Below, piece by piece: positions 5,616-12,990 of a DNA stretch of 13,930 bases. The notes beneath the pieces were generated by a model. It was not told where the DNA came from. It ran no database searches and saw nothing but the letters and a program-made list of their open reading frames with translations. How positions within the stretch are numbered: the first letter of the stretch is position 1; every line of letters starts with the position of its first letter. The position numbers were made by a program, and so were the translations under genes. This DNA comes from Phenylobacterium sp. (lineage in GTDB: Bacteria > Pseudomonadota > Alphaproteobacteria > Caulobacterales > Caulobacteraceae), in NCBI GenBank assembly GCA_019264505.1, contig JAHUZY010000403.1, positions 1 to 13,930 on the forward strand, given 5' to 3'.

Positions 5616-5772
5616 GGTTAAGGGGTGCGTTGGCCCGCAACACAGGTTCGCCCGCCGGGGCGAGAGCGCCAATGGTCAGTCGCCTTTCGATTGCTGTGAG
5701 TGGAACGGCCGAAGAACGACCTCACCACCACGGGCGGAGCCACGGCCTTGCGACCGATTTCGCAATGTGAAT
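5616..5772. other. Intergenic junction between 3-hydroxybutyrate dehydrogenase gene and the accessory region
   Basis: About 157 bases without a supported gene, lying between the tail-to-tail ends of bdhA and the AAA-TOPRIM gene. A short hairpin CGCCC-GCCG-GGGCG (5649-5662) could serve as a weak terminator but has no T-run. Base composition falls from the GC-rich left side into the AT-richer gene, so the left edge of the foreign segment probably lies here. No tRNA and no clear direct repeat was seen. Confidence 0.4.
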
Positions 5773-7848
5773 TCAGCTCGCCACTACCTCTGCTAAAATG
5801 CGCCCCATACCTGCTGGCTGGAACTTCGCATCGGCCATTCGACTCGCGATGAGATTTCGAAGACGCACGTAGCCAAGACCCTCGCCGTGACGATGCGCGA
5901 ACTCGTGAAGCACGTCTCTCCCGCGAAAAGTCTTGGCCCAACGATCGCTCGTTAGATCTGCGGTAAGTTCAGATTGCGTTCTCTGCTCCAAGGTAAGAAG
6001 TGCAGAACTAGAAAGCTCTGACTGCTCAAGATCATGCATCTTCGCAAGTGACCTGGACAGTGCCGATGCAACTCCGTTCGATGGGCTGAGGCGTGGATCT
6101 GACTTGAGATTAAGGGAAGAATTTATCTTCTCACCTACACGCTTCTTCAATTCATGCAAAACGAGCGCAGGAACGCACGCGCGAGCGCATTCTCGAAGCT
6201 CATTCCAAACGTCCTCAGCGTTAGAGAACTTTTTTATATCTAGAGCTCGCAATGTCTCAAGAATGAACTGAGGCTGCAGCAAGTAGTTTTCTATATGATA
6301 TACGTCCCATCTAAAGCGATGTTTTTCACTGGGTGGTACCCCATCCCCATCGCCATCCCAATCCGTTATCGATCTGACCTCGAATGGTATTTTGCCAGAT
6401 TTGGCGGCTCTCTCCAATGTATTATGAAGGCTTCTAACTCGGTCTTTGCTTCCACCTGACAGGCAATTCAGTCGCTCTTGCATTTCGGGAAACAGCTTCT
6501 GCACGAGGTTTATATCGTACTCCGACTCGCCTCCACCCTCGAATATAAGGACTTTGCCGCCAGGCCTGAACGCCGCCAAATCTCCAACGAGGTCGAGCAC
6601 GAGCTGCTCGGCATCCTCCTCTGCCTCCATCCGCGAAAGCTGATTTGTCGCGAAATCGAGGTGTAGCGCCGAGGACATATGGAAGAGGGAAAACTCGTCT
6701 TGTCCAAGCGTCTCACGGATGAGGGCATCGGAATGGGTTATGAGCCAAATCTGGTTGTCTAAGGCGGACGCTAAGTGCTCCGAGTAGAACTTCGGCAACT
6801 TACGAATAAGGCTGGGATTCAGGTGTAGTTCAGGTTCATCGAGTAAAACTATGGAATATCTTGGGGCCGAATTCCGTATTCTGAGATAACCATACAGTAT
6901 TTCTTTCTCGCCAGCGCTTAGTTCATTCAAGTCATGAGTGGAGCCATCCTTTCCAATAACAGGGAATGTCAGAGTCCCTTGAGGCGTCGGAAGGGGGCCG
7001 GGGAATGACTTGTCCGGAAAGAACGTTGTGAAAAGACTTTGTAGCGTAGATGTAAGGCTTGTTGAGCTATTTAATTTAGTGCCGGCGCGCTCTGCAAGAA
7101 CTTCTTGCACATATCCTGCCGCCAACTCCGACTTGATGTTCGTGTACTTCGACTGGTAGTTATAGAGGGCGGTATTTTTTTGCTGCTGCTTGTGCGCGTC
7201 TAGATTTACGTTTAGGTTTTGAACCAGCTCCCTCTGGAAGTGCCGCTGCGGGCTATGGTAATCTATGAGTCCAAGCACTCTTGGCATGTAGCTGCGAAAC
7301 ACCAGAGAAGCAGCTATGCTGTCGATTAGATTTAAGTCGCCACCTGGAGTGTACGTAAGTCCAATTTCTAGATCATCCTTTTCTAGCTCATCCATAAGGA
7401 TTGGTAGATTTAGTTCGACCATCCTATTTGCAGCTTCCTGCTGTGCTCTGATCTGCTCAGCGGGAACTCCTACGGCAAGCCTAAAATCTCCTGGACGGAA
7501 TATGGCGCCAGAGATTTCCCTTGCGCCGTTGGCTGCTAGATAAGCTCTCTCGTCAGGATGAAGCCTTATTGTGCACCTAAGTTCAAGCGGCGTGTCTCGT
7601 TTGTTAAGTAGTGGAATAAGATCGACGCGCCCGAACTCGTCTTGCGGCATTTGAAACTCATTGAACCACTGATGTATTTCGCCCGGCTGATACTCCCCGT
7701 ACACAGTTTTGAGCAGGCGAATAGCGTCGAATATGGTCGATTTACCGCAGCCGTTTGGGCCAGCAACAATCACTGTTGTGCCGAGGTCTTTCATTTCAGC
7801 GTATTTGACGCCTCGAAAGTTCTTTATCGTAAGTGAAGTGATGTGCAT
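5773..7848 (-). CDS. AAA/ABC-type ATPase fused to TOPRIM/DUF4435-like domain (OLD or merged PARIS-like defence protein)
   Basis: A 691-residue protein with two parts. Residues 1 to about 400 form an SMC/RecF/OLD-type ATPase: MHITSLTIKNFRGV start, Walker A GPNGCGKST (30-38), ABC signature LSAGEKE (310-316), Walker B SIVLLDEPELHL (332-343) and the H-loop THSD (371-374). Residues about 430-691 look TOPRIM/DUF4435-like: KVLIFEGGGESEYD (432-445), the acidic TDWDGDGDG (495-503), YHIENYLL (517-524) and a late FRGRDVLHEF. Class 1 OLD nucleases and PARIS (AriA ATPase plus AriB DUF4435, sometimes merged) share this plan and act against phage. The ATG at 7848 is chosen because the family N-terminus begins there; the frame stays open 44 codons upstream without family features, and no strong ribosome site is seen. 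The gene is strikingly AT-richer than its neighbours, indicating transfer. PARIS versus OLD is unresolved. Confidence 0.8.
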   Translation of the reverse strand: MHITSLTIKNFRGVKYAEMKDLGTTVIVAGPNGCGKSTIFDAIRLLKTVYGEYQPGEIHQWFNEFQMPQDEFGRVDLIPLLNKRDTPLELRCTIRLHPDERAYLAANGAREISGAIFRPGDFRLAVGVPAEQIRAQQEAANRMVELNLPILMDELEKDDLEIGLTYTPGGDLNLIDSIAASLVFRSYMPRVLGLIDYHSPQRHFQRELVQNLNVNLDAHKQQQKNTALYNYQSKYTNIKSELAAGYVQEVLAERAGTKLNSSTSLTSTLQSLFTTFFPDKSFPGPLPTPQGTLTFPVIGKDGSTHDLNELSAGEKEILYGYLRIRNSAPRYSIVLLDEPELHLNPSLIRKLPKFYSEHLASALDNQIWLITHSDALIRETLGQDEFSLFHMSSALHLDFATNQLSRMEAEEDAEQLVLDLVGDLAAFRPGGKVLIFEGGGESEYDINLVQKLFPEMQERLNCLSGGSKDRVRSLHNTLERAAKSGKIPFEVRSITDWDGDGDGVPPSEKHRFRWDVYHIENYLLQPQFILETLRALDIKKFSNAEDVWNELRECARACVPALVLHELKKRVGEKINSSLNLKSDPRLSPSNGVASALSRSLAKMHDLEQSELSSSALLTLEQRTQSELTADLTSDRWAKTFRGRDVLHEFAHRHGEGLGYVRLRNLIASRMADAKFQPAGMGRILAEVVAS

Positions 7849-8343
7849 CCAATTAGGCCGATTTCTGCATAGCTGGGCGATACGATTCCCGTCTCGGAGC
7901 ACGCTAAGCTTGCACGGCTCGCGCGCAACCATCTTCGTGGGATCGGTTGCAGCCAGGAGTCTCGCCAGAAGGCACTTCACGAAAGCGTTGGAGCGCGCCC
8001 GCTGGCGCGGCGCGGTAGCGCTTGCCGCTCAGCTTGAGGCGGCATCCGAAAAGCAAGTCTTTCCAAGCCGACACCTGAACATGAAAAGGTCTGCTTCTCT
8101 AATCGGGCATGGGGGTCAAGCTGGTTTTGCTCTTCGGCCTGATCGATCACGCGGGTCACGCTTCTCTTCGCAGTCTGGATGGCTCCTTACGAGCGGAGCC
8201 GCTGCACGCATGCATGGGATCAGGGTCTGGAGAGCCTCGCTATTGGTCGCGCTCGGAGCGCAGCAGACATTTTCGGCTTCATCCATCCCGTCGTCCGCGT
8301 GGGACGATCCGGCCAGGATCGGATTGAGGTGCGGTAGGTCAGG
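7849..8343. other. Gene-free stretch: upstream region of the ATPase gene plus 3' non-coding end of the IS110 element
   Basis: About 495 bases with no credible gene; reading frames here lack family resemblance. The left part (7849 to about 8090) must hold the leftward promoter of the ATPase gene, though no clear -35/-10 pair stands out. The right part (about 8090-8343) lies just after the transposase stop and is rich in short perfect hairpins: GGCTCC/GGAGCC (8181-8200), GCGCT/AGCGC (8249-8261), TCGTCC/GGACGA (8291-8307) and CGATCC/GGATCG (8305-8321). The likely right end of the element is near 8090-8110, where the minus strand reads GCTTGACCCCCATG and then GATTAGAGAAGC, similar from memory to ends of related IS110 elements. 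Confidence 0.45.
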
Positions 8344-9372
8344 TCATGCCGCAGCCTCCGATCCGTGCCGGAACTCTGTGCCGTCCGCCCACATGCGGTG
8401 CAGAACGACAGCAAGCTTGCGGGCGACGGCGACGATGGCGCGCCGGCGCCCCTTGGTCTTCATCAGCCGCATGCCCCAGGCCTTCAGGCTCGACCACGCG
8501 ATCGAGCGCATGAGCATCGCGTTGGCGGCGGCGTAGAGAGTGGCGCGCACATCGGAGTCGCCGGCGTGGGAGATGCGCCCGGGATTGTCCTTCTCGCCGG
8601 ACTGGAAGCGTCTGGGCGTCAGTCCGAAGTGGGCGCCGACGGTGCGCGAGCGCTTGAAGCGGGCGGGATCGTCGACCGCGGCCTTGAAGCTCAGGGCGGT
8701 GATCTCGCCGACGCCGGGGATGCCCATGAAACGGGTGCAGACCTCGTCTTCGTGAGCCGCCTTCCTCACGCGCCGGTCTAGCTCCATGAAGGTCTCGAAC
8801 AACATCTGCCGCGCGTGCAGCATCGGCAGCAGAGCCCGGCTCAGCGCCGGATCGCTCTCGATGGTGTCGCGCACGGCGACGTCGAAGGCGCCGCGCGACA
8901 GGCGCATGGGCAACTTCACGCCGAACACCTTCAGCAGGCCCCGGATCTCGTTCTCCAGGTCGATGCACTTGCGCTGCATCACCTTGCGGCTGGTGAGCAG
9001 CGCCCGCAGATGATGGCTCTCAACGCTCTTCACATGAACCCGGCTGTACCACCCGGAGCGGAGGATCTGGGCGATGCCGCGAGCGTCGTGCTTGTCCGTC
9101 TTGTTGCGCATGGCCGACAGCGCCGCCGCGACCTGCCTCGCCTCCATGCACACGACGTCGAAGCCGGCTTCCCGAAGGCCATAGGTCAGATGCTGGGTGA
9201 GCGTGCCGGCCTCCAGGCCGACCTGATGGATCGGCTCGCCGAACGCATTCAGGCAGCGGACCAGGTCCGGCACATCCGACGGCACTGATCGCTCGAGGCG
9301 GACCTTCCCGTCATCATCAATGATGCAGACCGCCACTGAGCGCAGCGACACATCCAACGCAGCGTAGAACAT
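8344..9372 (-). CDS. IS110-family DEDD transposase/recombinase
   Basis: A bridge-RNA type recombinase that moves its own element. It is 342 residues, full length. The N-terminal RuvC-like DEDD domain has ALDVS with D7, GLEAGT with E54, and NKTDKHDARGIA with D93 and D96. A helical middle (about 120-210) follows. The C-terminal Tnp_20 domain has GIPGVGEITALSF (217-229), TPRRFQSGEKDNPGRIS and S268, the likely nucleophile, followed by KTKGRRRAIVAVARKLAVVLHRMW. The ATG at 9372 has AGGGAG (complement of 9379-9384) six bases upstream. All catalytic residues and both domains are present, so the gene appears functional. Its GC content resembles the host chromosome, unlike the neighbouring ATPase gene. 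Confidence 0.95.
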   Translation of the reverse strand: MFYAALDVSLRSVAVCIIDDDGKVRLERSVPSDVPDLVRCLNAFGEPIHQVGLEAGTLTQHLTYGLREAGFDVVCMEARQVAAALSAMRNKTDKHDARGIAQILRSGWYSRVHVKSVESHHLRALLTSRKVMQRKCIDLENEIRGLLKVFGVKLPMRLSRGAFDVAVRDTIESDPALSRALLPMLHARQMLFETFMELDRRVRKAAHEDEVCTRFMGIPGVGEITALSFKAAVDDPARFKRSRTVGAHFGLTPRRFQSGEKDNPGRISHAGDSDVRATLYAAANAMLMRSIAWSSLKAWGMRLMKTKGRRRAIVAVARKLAVVLHRMWADGTEFRHGSEAAA

Positions 9373-9387
9373 CGTCGTCTCCCTTCA

Positions 9388-9511
9388 TCTCGGACTGAGC
9401 CGAGAACTCTATGGGAGCTTGCCCCTTCGCAGGACCGCCCGATTACGCATGCTATGGGCCTGATACCGACGCGTTAGATTGCGATTCCTGTTCAGTTTCG
9501 GAGGCGGTCCT
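9388..9511 (-). ncRNA. Candidate IS110 bridge RNA (structured 5' non-coding region of the element)
   Basis: In IS110-group elements the bridge RNA is encoded between the left end and the transposase start. Here that region contains a perfect nine-base inverted repeat, AGGACCGCC (9431-9439) with GGCGGTCCT (9503-9511). It encloses an asymmetric internal loop and a second six-pair stem (9445-9450 with 9469-9474, one G-U pair) capped by an 18-base loop. Closer to the gene is TCTCGG-ACTGAG-CCGAGA (9388-9405). This nested stem with a large internal loop is the shape expected of a guide loop. The RNA ends and the guides are not determined. Confidence 0.4.
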
Positions 9512-9656
9512 ACCTAGCGTCGGCCAGTAGCCCATCTAAGAACGTTAAACGCACGGGCCCCACTCCGGCGCACCCACCCCCGCCCGCACCCTTGACCTGC
9601 CGCCTTCGCCCGCCTCTCTTCTCGCCCAACAAGTGTTTGAAAATGAGGAGGACGCC

Positions 9657-10436
9657 GTGGCCTATAAACCCTTTGACCTGACTGGAAAGGTGGCCCTGGT
9701 CACCGGCGGCAATGGCGGGATCGGCTTTGGCATGGTCGAGGCCATGGCTCAGGCCGGCGCCGACATCGTCATCTGGGGCTCCAATCCCGACAAGAACCGG
9801 GCGGCGGAAGAGAAGCTGAAGCCCACCGGGGTGCGGGTGCTGACCCAGGTGGTCAATGTGGCCGACGAGAGCGCCGTGGCCGACGGCATGGAGGCCGCCG
9901 TGGCCAAGATGGGCGCGGTGCACACGGTGGTGGCCAATGCCGGCATCGGCGGCGGGGCCAAGTCGTTCTCGGAGTTTCCCACCGAGACCTATCGCAAGGT
10001 GCTGTCGGTCAATCTGGACGGGGTGTTCTTCACCTTCCGGGAGGCGTGCAAGCACATGGTCGCCCGGGGCGACGACGGGCAGGGGGGCTCGCTGGTGGCG
10101 ATCTCGTCCCTGTCGGCCCTGGACGGGGCGGCGCGAAACCAGGCCTATGCGGCCACCAAGGGCGCCCTGATCCCCATGGTCCGGGCCATCGCCGTGGAGC
10201 ATGCCCGCTATGGGGTGCGGGCCAATGTGATCCTTCCGGGCTGGGTCGCCACCGACATGACGGCCGCGGCCCAGGACAATGACAAGTTCAACGAGAACGT
10301 CATCAAGCGGGTGCCCATGCGCCGCTGGGGGGAGCCGGCGGACTTCGGCGGCATGGCGGTTTATCTGGCCTCGGACGCCTCGCGCTTCCACACCGGCGAC
10401 TCCTTCCTGATCGACGGCGGCTACGGCGTCTTCTGA
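9657..10436 (+). CDS. Short-chain dehydrogenase/reductase, classical SDR, substrate unknown
   Basis: NAD(P)-dependent oxidoreductase of the classical SDR type, 259 residues. It has the cofactor motif TGGNGGIG (16-23), ANAGIG, the NLDGVF segment, and the catalytic set S151, Y164, K168 in YAATK. The C-terminal half shows the RWGEPADFGGMAVYLASDAS pattern and the ending FLIDGGYGVF. The start is taken as GTG 9657 because GAGGAGG (9645-9651) stands five bases before it; a GTG at 9633 would put the ribosome site inside the gene. It is the first core-type gene right of the IS110 element and lies upstream of a nitronate monooxygenase gene in the same direction. The substrate cannot be told from sequence. 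Confidence 0.88.
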   Translation: MAYKPFDLTGKVALVTGGNGGIGFGMVEAMAQAGADIVIWGSNPDKNRAAEEKLKPTGVRVLTQVVNVADESAVADGMEAAVAKMGAVHTVVANAGIGGGAKSFSEFPTETYRKVLSVNLDGVFFTFREACKHMVARGDDGQGGSLVAISSLSALDGAARNQAYAATKGALIPMVRAIAVEHARYGVRANVILPGWVATDMTAAAQDNDKFNENVIKRVPMRRWGEPADFGGMAVYLASDASRFHTGDSFLIDGGYGVF

Positions 10437-10684
10437 CCCCGACTTTCGCGCCGCAGGCGCTGAAAAAAGGAGGGTGACACGAAGGGCACGAAGGGAAGCC
10501 AAGGACACGAAGGCCTCGCGGCTTCTTCCTTTGTGTCCTTCGCGGTCCTTTGTGTTCTTTGTGTCGCCTCTTTATTGAATGCGCTGCGCGCGGGGCCTTG
10601 CCCCCCTGACGCAGGGTCAGTGTTTGCGGGCGCGGCGGTCGGCGCCATGGTGGGGGCAACCAGAACACCACGGGAGACGACGCC
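10437..10684. other. Intergenic region between SDR and monooxygenase genes, repeat-filled
   Basis: About 248 bases dominated by the long hairpin repeat at 10476-10565. Further right come two small tandem hairpins: GGGGC-CTT-GCCCC (10592-10604) and CTGAC-GCAGG-GTCAG (10606-10620). A GGGAG ribosome site shortly before 10685 serves the next gene. No open frame here is convincing. Confidence 0.6.
10476..10565 (+). repeat. Long imperfect inverted repeat with 38-base arms, built of CACGAAGG units
   Basis: The left arm (10476-10513) and right arm (10528-10565) pair at 29 of 38 positions as DNA. Six of the nine mismatches are G opposite T, so the plus-strand RNA would pair at 35 of 38 through G-U pairs. 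The loop is 14 bases. The left arm contains CACGAAGG three times (10478, 10487, 10506) and the right arm CCTTTGTG twice (10528, 10547) plus a variant. This looks like a dispersed intergenic repeat of the kind scattered through GC-rich genomes; it may also stop transcription after the SDR gene. Confidence 0.75.
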
Positions 10685-11662
10685 ATGACCCTGCACACGC
10701 CGCTTTGCGACCTCTTGGAGATCCAGCATCCGATCATGCAGGCCGGCATGGGCGGGGTGGCCTATGCCGAGCTGGTGGCCGCGGTCTGCGAGGCCGGCGG
10801 CTATGGGGTGCTGGGCATGGCCGGCCGCTCGCCGGACTTCATCCGCGAGGAGATGCGCAAGGTCCGCCAGCTGACCGACAAGCCGTTCGGCGTCGACCTG
10901 CTGGCCGCCTCGCCCGAGAGCCTGACGGCCTCGGTGGAGATCATCATCGAAGAGGGCGCCTCGTCCTTCATCGCAGGCCTCGGCGTGCCCATGCCGATCA
11001 TGGAGAAGCTGAAGGCCGCGGGCCTCAAGGTCATGGTGGTCTGCGGGGCGGTGAAGCATGCGGTGAAGGCCGAGCAGGCCGGCTGCGACGCGGTCATCTG
11101 CCAGGGCGGGGAGGGCGGCGGTCATACGGGCCTCGTCGGCACCCTGCCGCTGGTCTGCCAGGCCGTGGAAGCGGTGAAGATCCCGGTGGTGGCTGCCGGC
11201 GGCATTTCCGATGGCCGGGGGCTGGCCGCGGCGCTGGCGCTCGGCGCGCAGGGGGTCTGGATCGGCACCCGGTTCATCGCCTCGACCGAGGCCCATGCGG
11301 GCCAGGCCTATCGCGAGGCCGTCGTGGCCGCTCAGGACGTCGATACGGTCCGCACCCGCTGCTATTCGGGCAAGCCCATGCGGGTGATGAGCAACCCCTA
11401 TGTGGCCGATTGGGAGAGCCGGCCCCAGGAGATCCAGCCCTTCCCCCTGCAGGCCATGCACTCCACCCAGACCGGGGTCATGGGGGGCATCGGCGGACAG
11501 ATCGAGGGGCTGGACCCTGACCGCTCCTGCTTCGCCATGGGCCAGTCGGCCGGCGGCGTCCACGACATCAAGCCGGCCGCCCAGATCGTCGCCGAGATGG
11601 TGGCTGAGGCCGAGGCCGCCATCGACCGCATGGCGCGCCTGCGGGGTCTGGTCCCGGCCTGA
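10685..11662 (+). CDS. Nitronate monooxygenase (class I, 2-nitropropane dioxygenase family)
   Basis: FMN-dependent oxidation of alkyl nitronates (such as propionate 3-nitronate) to carbonyl compounds and nitrite; related members have other enoyl or detoxifying roles. The 325-residue TIM-barrel protein starts with PIMQAGMGGVA, which contacts FMN. It carries QGGEGGGHTG with H147, the catalytic histidine of class I enzymes, then VPVVAAGGISDG-type phosphate binding (here IPVVAAGGISDGRG) and ALALGAQGVWIGTRFIAS. The end MGQSAGGVHDIKPAAQIV is characteristic of the family. The ATG at 10685 follows a GGGAG site. It converges on the YbjN-like gene with a 12-base gap containing a hairpin. Confidence 0.9.
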   Translation: MTLHTPLCDLLEIQHPIMQAGMGGVAYAELVAAVCEAGGYGVLGMAGRSPDFIREEMRKVRQLTDKPFGVDLLAASPESLTASVEIIIEEGASSFIAGLGVPMPIMEKLKAAGLKVMVVCGAVKHAVKAEQAGCDAVICQGGEGGGHTGLVGTLPLVCQAVEAVKIPVVAAGGISDGRGLAAALALGAQGVWIGTRFIASTEAHAGQAYREAVVAAQDVDTVRTRCYSGKPMRVMSNPYVADWESRPQEIQPFPLQAMHSTQTGVMGGIGGQIEGLDPDRSCFAMGQSAGGVHDIKPAAQIVAEMVAEAEAAIDRMARLRGLVPA

Positions 11663-12741: not shown

Positions 12742-12990
12742 AGTGCGGCTTCGCCCCTGGCGCGACCGACCTTGACAGGCGAGGTCCAGCTCCCAATTTT
12801 GCGGCTGCGGGCCGGGCCCCTCTGACAGTCATGGTGACTGTGATGTCGGACCGCATCGAGGGTGCTCGATGACTGGGCTCGGACCGAATTCGCCGCATTA
12901 TGCGTTGGATCGCGACGTTCGCCGCTCCGTCAGCGCGGGCGCCAGAATCGCAATGGGTCCCGCGGGCCCCTGTGGAGACATCCGATCCCG
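12742..12990. other. Intergenic region upstream of the calcium/sodium antiporter gene
   Basis: About 249 bases without a convincing gene. It contains TTGACA (12772-12777) followed after 17 bases by AATTTT (12795-12800), a possible but weak promoter, and a perfect 17-bp palindrome at 12825-12841. GGAG (12974-12977) lies 13 bases before the antiporter ATG, a rather distant ribosome site. A short frame from 12900 is out of register with the antiporter and shows no family features. Confidence 0.4.
12825..12841. promoter_or_regulatory. Perfect 17-bp palindrome, candidate operator upstream of the antiporter gene
   Basis: ACAGTCATGGTGACTGT has seven-base arms and a three-base centre. It lies 24 bases after a possible -10 (12795-12800) and about 150 bases before the antiporter start, a usual place for a repressor site. 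It matches no regulator motif that I recognise. As RNA it would also form a small hairpin. Confidence 0.4.

Follow-up and report, generated by a model that had tools for sequence, protein, structure and literature searches.

The window analysed here, the whole 13,930-nucleotide stretch of contig JAHUZY010000403.1 from Phenylobacterium sp., carries on its minus strand a gene that is, by its make-up, very probably a merged form of the antiphage system PARIS, with the ATPase AriA and the nuclease AriB joined in one chain. The initial annotation of this DNA had proposed a single chain of ATPase plus C-terminal domain, and the reading frame is indeed intact, with 691 amino acids and no internal stop. 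The frame is open further upstream to a GTG at 7980, giving an alternative of 735 amino acids; of 46 aligned sequences, counting that of the window, at least 90% keep the methionine at 7848. Conservation was otherwise judged in an alignment of 69 proteins, namely that of the window and those of 68 of the 80 loci from a scan of named genomes that found 223 relatives. Nine loci with an open frame below 97% of the match and three of at most 600 amino acids were left out. The gene and its parts are as follows.

5773..7848, minus strand: gene very probably encoding merged AriAB (PARIS), 691 amino acids; PADLOC model PDLC02981, E 4.4e-181, residues 1-689
6637..7848, minus strand: ABC ATPase half, residues 1-404
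7735..7761, minus strand: Walker A, GPNGCGKST, residues 30-38
6901..6921, minus strand: ABC signature, LSAGEKE, residues 310-316
6820..6855, minus strand: Walker B, SIVLLDEPELHL, residues 332-343
6727..6738, minus strand: H-loop, THSD, residues 371-374
6625..6675, minus strand: connecting segment, residues 392-408; its length is 15-17 residues in 62 of the 69 aligned proteins
5776..6636, minus strand: AriB-like Toprim/DUF4435 half, residues 405-691
6538..6540, minus strand: E437, presumed catalytic glutamate of Toprim, at the place in motif order of E29 of two-gene AriB
6355..6363, minus strand: D496-x-D498, presumed metal site
6283..6294, minus strand: IENY, residues 519-522, whose invariant E520-N521 take the place of E109-N110 in two-gene AriB

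The PADLOC AriAB model PDLC02981 matches over nearly its whole length (602 bits, model positions 1-691 of 694), and the second-best PADLOC model for the protein reaches 75.8 bits. Among loci L078 to L081, three proteins were scanned and all match AriAB best. The suggested profile check of the ATPase half gave AAA_15 (1.2e-17) and AAA_21 (2.7e-17), both above the Pfam cut-offs. The DUF4435-like character assigned to the C-terminus held only in part: the Pfam profile matches residues 441-647 with 20.1 bits (E 5.8e-4), under its cut-off of 27, and a DUF4435 search of 398 genomes at 1e-8 did not recover this genome, so the label is based on profile-profile comparison and on the fold. That search found DUF4435 in 13 of the 398 genomes, as a short ATPase fusion in nine and as a separate gene adjoining an ATPase in four. 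PF14491 is among the precomputed domains of several full-length relatives.

The four ATPase motifs lie where they had been annotated, and their key residues are kept: K36 of Walker A in 67 of the 69 proteins, and S311, G313, E314, D337, E338 and H372 in every one. The same holds in the effector half for E437, the proposed acidic start, and for D496, E520 and N521 (each 69/69), with D498 in 68. The named motifs are more than chance, because they are kept across the alignment; these are the Walker motifs and catalytic acidic residues expected of a merged PARIS. Within the acidic run described at 496-502, D496 and D498 are conserved, whereas D500 is found in 22 proteins and the five commonest residues of position 502 do not include aspartate. 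The IENYLL motif is present at 519-524. K468 is K or R in 66 proteins and R470 is R or K in 44; these basic residues are placed where the helix following the effector domain's second strand begins, and they might correspond to K60 and K64 of AriB. An extra G438 is common to 44 of the aligned proteins, including that of the window.

A search of the Protein Data Bank (PDB) with the single sequence returned mainly P-loop ATPases at the top, with neither AriA nor AriB, and a sequence search with the C-terminal profile did not find AriB. The C-terminal domain was therefore modelled alone, and the effector fold comparison uses this separate model; the full-length model (predicted template-modelling score, pTM, 0.58) gave low-scoring matches in a list filled by the ATPase. 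AriB is the best solved fold for the predicted C-terminal domain. Checked by profile and by structure, the C-terminal half thus gave a Toprim/DUF4435-type match, and its acidic residues are conserved in homologs, the two points on which the initial annotation had asked to be judged.

The annotation left open whether the gene is a merged PARIS or an OLD nuclease. If it were a single-chain, class 1 OLD-like enzyme, its Toprim would cut DNA under ATP-dependent control and have no tRNA target. Class 1 OLD and GajA do share the order of ABC ATPase and then Toprim in one chain, and excerpts of PMC10568477 call the affiliation of the effector half, AriB or OLD, unclear. However, the OLD Toprim superposes only partially, covering 160-162 residues where AriB covers 222, and the effector profile matches 17 two-gene AriB proteins at 88-92% probability and three OLD proteins at 5.5%, that is, without a match. 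At equal depth, 14 of 15 random AriB triplets still outscore the OLD triplet (range 4.2-88.9%), so that the gap shrinks and its direction is unchanged. Consensus lines also share the EN motif and the C-terminal G[KR]D stretch of AriB, in the same order. Profile comparison and the predicted fold therefore support placing the effector half with AriB and disfavour OLD for it, and we regard an OLD-type DNA nuclease as unlikely. The excerpted text of PMC10568477 relates a proposal to count PARIS as 'class 4 OLD', so the two labels do not wholly exclude each other.

The ancestry of the ATPase half is less favourable to the merged PARIS interpretation. In a control with equal numbers of sequences, its profile does not favour AriA over OLD. 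This weighs slightly against our interpretation and lends a little weight to a second alternative, in which an AriB-like effector was captured independently by an ATPase of the PtuA or another OLD type, giving a PARIS-like effector with a different way of sensing infection. The predicted ATPase fold is closer to PtuA in the structure comparison with the full-length model. No PtuA was recovered from 249 genomes at 1e-60, controls included, so that the profile comparison of the ATPase covered AriA, OLD and GajA. Against independent capture, 14 of 15 draws have AriA pairs scoring above the two GajA proteins (E 1e-5), and we consider such a capture rather improbable. Were it true, 'merged PARIS' would be a name by architecture only.

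Set beside two-gene PARIS (AriA plus AriB; PDB 8ux9, 8v45-8v49), the window protein has the same pairing of an ABC ATPase with a Toprim/DUF4435 nuclease and the same order of invariant E, DxD and EN, and the AriB fold spans its whole effector domain. Sequence identity is low, however, and the ATPase fold differs as noted; the fusion fixes a 1:1 ratio where excerpts of PMC12409363 give six AriA to three AriB, and it has no free AriB to release. The full-length model match and relatives of about 690 amino acids tie it to the long merged PARIS of PDLC02981, within which it sits on a thinly sampled branch. A protein search gave 1813 proteins at E ≤0.001 among 7996 scored candidates; among the 120 homologs listed, only three besides the protein itself exceed 51% identity (67, 60 and 55%, the last covering 94%). 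Shorter ATPase-DUF4435 fusions of 533-559 amino acids also combine both domains in one chain, and their effector profiles match (97.7% with nine of them, 66-97% with three at a time), but they are about 130-160 residues shorter; they are presumably PADLOC's shorter AriAB type, PDLC02982 (570 positions). Four plasmid records match, two of which cover most of the protein at 43% identity, and two phage records match in part only; for a core protein flanking the insert, all plasmid matches stay below 60% identity. A natural split into two genes was considered for relatives with damaged frames and rejected, as L071 and L073 look like damaged single genes. L073 has a frame change near residue 435. 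In L071 (Tianweitania populi, 8001-11421) the gene is broken near residue 382, close to the joint of the halves, by a transposase-bearing element with an rve domain, which we take to be IS3-like; the remaining eight loci excluded over their open frame were seen as alignment pieces only.

The gene lies in a segment that differs from its surroundings, as the initial annotation had remarked of AT-richer DNA beside an IS110 element. The fraction of G and C is 0.47-0.51 in windows within 6001-7800 and 0.66-0.74 before 5800 and after 9600.

5634..9556, no strand assigned: variable segment holding the AriAB gene and IS110; nucleotide alignments stop at 5617-5635 and restart at 9557-9573
8344..9372, minus strand: IS110-family transposase, 342 amino acids (NCBIfam NF033542, 9.6e-71)

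In 60 genomes searched at 1e-20 (its own, 35 of the genus and 24 of the order), the gene was found only in its own. The comparison covers the five relatives in which both flanking dehydrogenase genes were found and the first of these is at least 85% identical (L103, L104, L107, L167 and L168). In all five both flanks are collinear and 5634-9556 is replaced by other DNA, with gaps between the flanking genes of 2140, 2620, 2774, 2479 and 2839 bases, respectively. Of the 46 fetched genus loci, 28 have the two flanking genes in matching orientation, separated by 25 to 5044 bases, and none of the 46 holds DNA similar to the window's insert (E 1e-3). No integrase was recognised in that insert. The gene was most likely acquired horizontally, and cargo may be exchanged at the site through the conserved flanks. 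A PADLOC scan of twelve cargo proteins from seven loci, the other open reading frames (ORFs) of L105 and L106 not included, gave matches at ≤1e-20 for six proteins in four loci.

L104 cargo: SoFic (8e-24) and AbiEi (1e-73)
L105 cargo: RT-Toprim retron I-C (1e-194)
L167 cargo: PDC-M30A (1e-21) and PDC-M41B (3e-101; Pfam DUF5131)
L168 cargo: PifA (5e-117; KAP NTPase)

No PADLOC match at 0.01 was seen for the two L103 proteins, one acetyltransferase-like and one unassigned, for the one HAD-like protein scanned from L106 or for two of the three L107 proteins; the third, DUF4145/HEPN-like, matches weakly (0.0015). Placement at the site is less sure for L105 and L106, because only one flank is visible. 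As a control, the nine core proteins flanking the window's insert gave one weak match (3.6e-5) and no other at 0.01. The site after the short-chain dehydrogenase gene is thus a probable defence hotspot: its cargo differs from one examined close relative to the next, and four of the seven loci scanned carry known or candidate defence genes. The claim is limited to this close clade, because in the more distant L117, L118 and L120 the same ORFs can recur in the gap from genome to genome. These observations also bear on whether the gene could be housekeeping or inert acquired DNA with no antiphage role. Its antiphage role is putative, read from sequence, and excerpts of PMC12796447 describe an OLD-family ATPase with a cell-cycle role in an archaeon. 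However, the 59 other genomes searched hold no match, the catalytic residues are kept and other defence-type genes occupy the same site in relatives, and we judge that explanation very improbable.

A stretch of 141-142 bases at 8089-8230, between the AriAB gene and the transposase, has 99% identical copies elsewhere in this genome, on contigs C289 and C299, there without the transposase; this may be a small non-autonomous element. A tRNA-Asp called by ARAGORN at 8558-8643 was rejected, as it falls within the IS110 gene and Rfam does not support it at the gathering threshold. Elsewhere in the window, an Rfam terC RNA (RF03067, 60.3 bits, cut-off 39.9) at 12804-12858 on the plus strand directly precedes a gene for a sodium/calcium exchanger (PF01699, 3.2e-58) rather than terC; a literature search on terC RNA found no papers.

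In two-gene PARIS, according to PMC12409363 and PMC11455837, an AriA hexamer holds three AriB (PMC12409363) until a phage trigger such as Ocr frees AriB, which dimerizes and cleaves tRNA. The fusion, being one covalent chain, cannot release AriB unless the chain is cut. The protein, most likely acquired horizontally, combines an ABC ATPase, the putative sensor, with a predicted AriB-like Toprim nuclease. By analogy, we suggest that its ATPase parts would build a ring in which the AriB-like domains, though tethered, are kept inactive. The trigger, probably an anti-restriction or similar phage protein, would alter the ATPase; the AriB-like domains might then leave the ATPase surface yet remain tethered, and each could pair with that of a neighbouring chain. 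The paired domains would nick an essential RNA (tRNA, as AriB does), with E437, D496 and D498 coordinating two metal ions, and translation would halt and the infected cell arrest. Of this picture, the analysis itself supplies the domain make-up, the kept catalytic residues, the AriB-type fold of a predicted model and the variable insert; the ring, trigger, RNA substrate and arrest are all carried over from two-gene PARIS, and towards the full mechanism, RNA cleavage included, we lean only slightly. More tentatively still, merged PARIS might keep its effector attached and activate it where it sits, through pairing with the domain of an adjacent chain within the ring, as an allosteric, tethered tRNA nuclease; we are inclined to doubt this form. 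The connecting segment joins the final strand of the ATPase to the AriB-like part, with a conserved helix after it, and the stretch 409-437 is 29 residues long in 63 of the 69 proteins. Such near-constant spacing fits tethered activation slightly better than a floppy leash.

Fused AriAB has already been described, and profiles built from such fusions, in the excerpted text of PMC9122126; the gene is therefore a further example of a known fusion type, in keeping with the annotation's remark that merged versions are known. Our literature search recognised no experiment on fused AriAB, which is not to claim that none is in print. A search of the Phenylobacterium and Caulobacter hotspot literature, with guessed genus names, found no report of this insertion site. 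What is new here is the evidence placing the effector half with AriB over OLD, together with the insertion site. With its varied short cargo, the site is a practical lead toward defence genes. The placement with AriB makes a question directly testable: does a chain that is unable to free its effector cut tRNA? If tethered, in-place activation is true, merged PARIS would form a mechanistic class of its own between PARIS and OLD.
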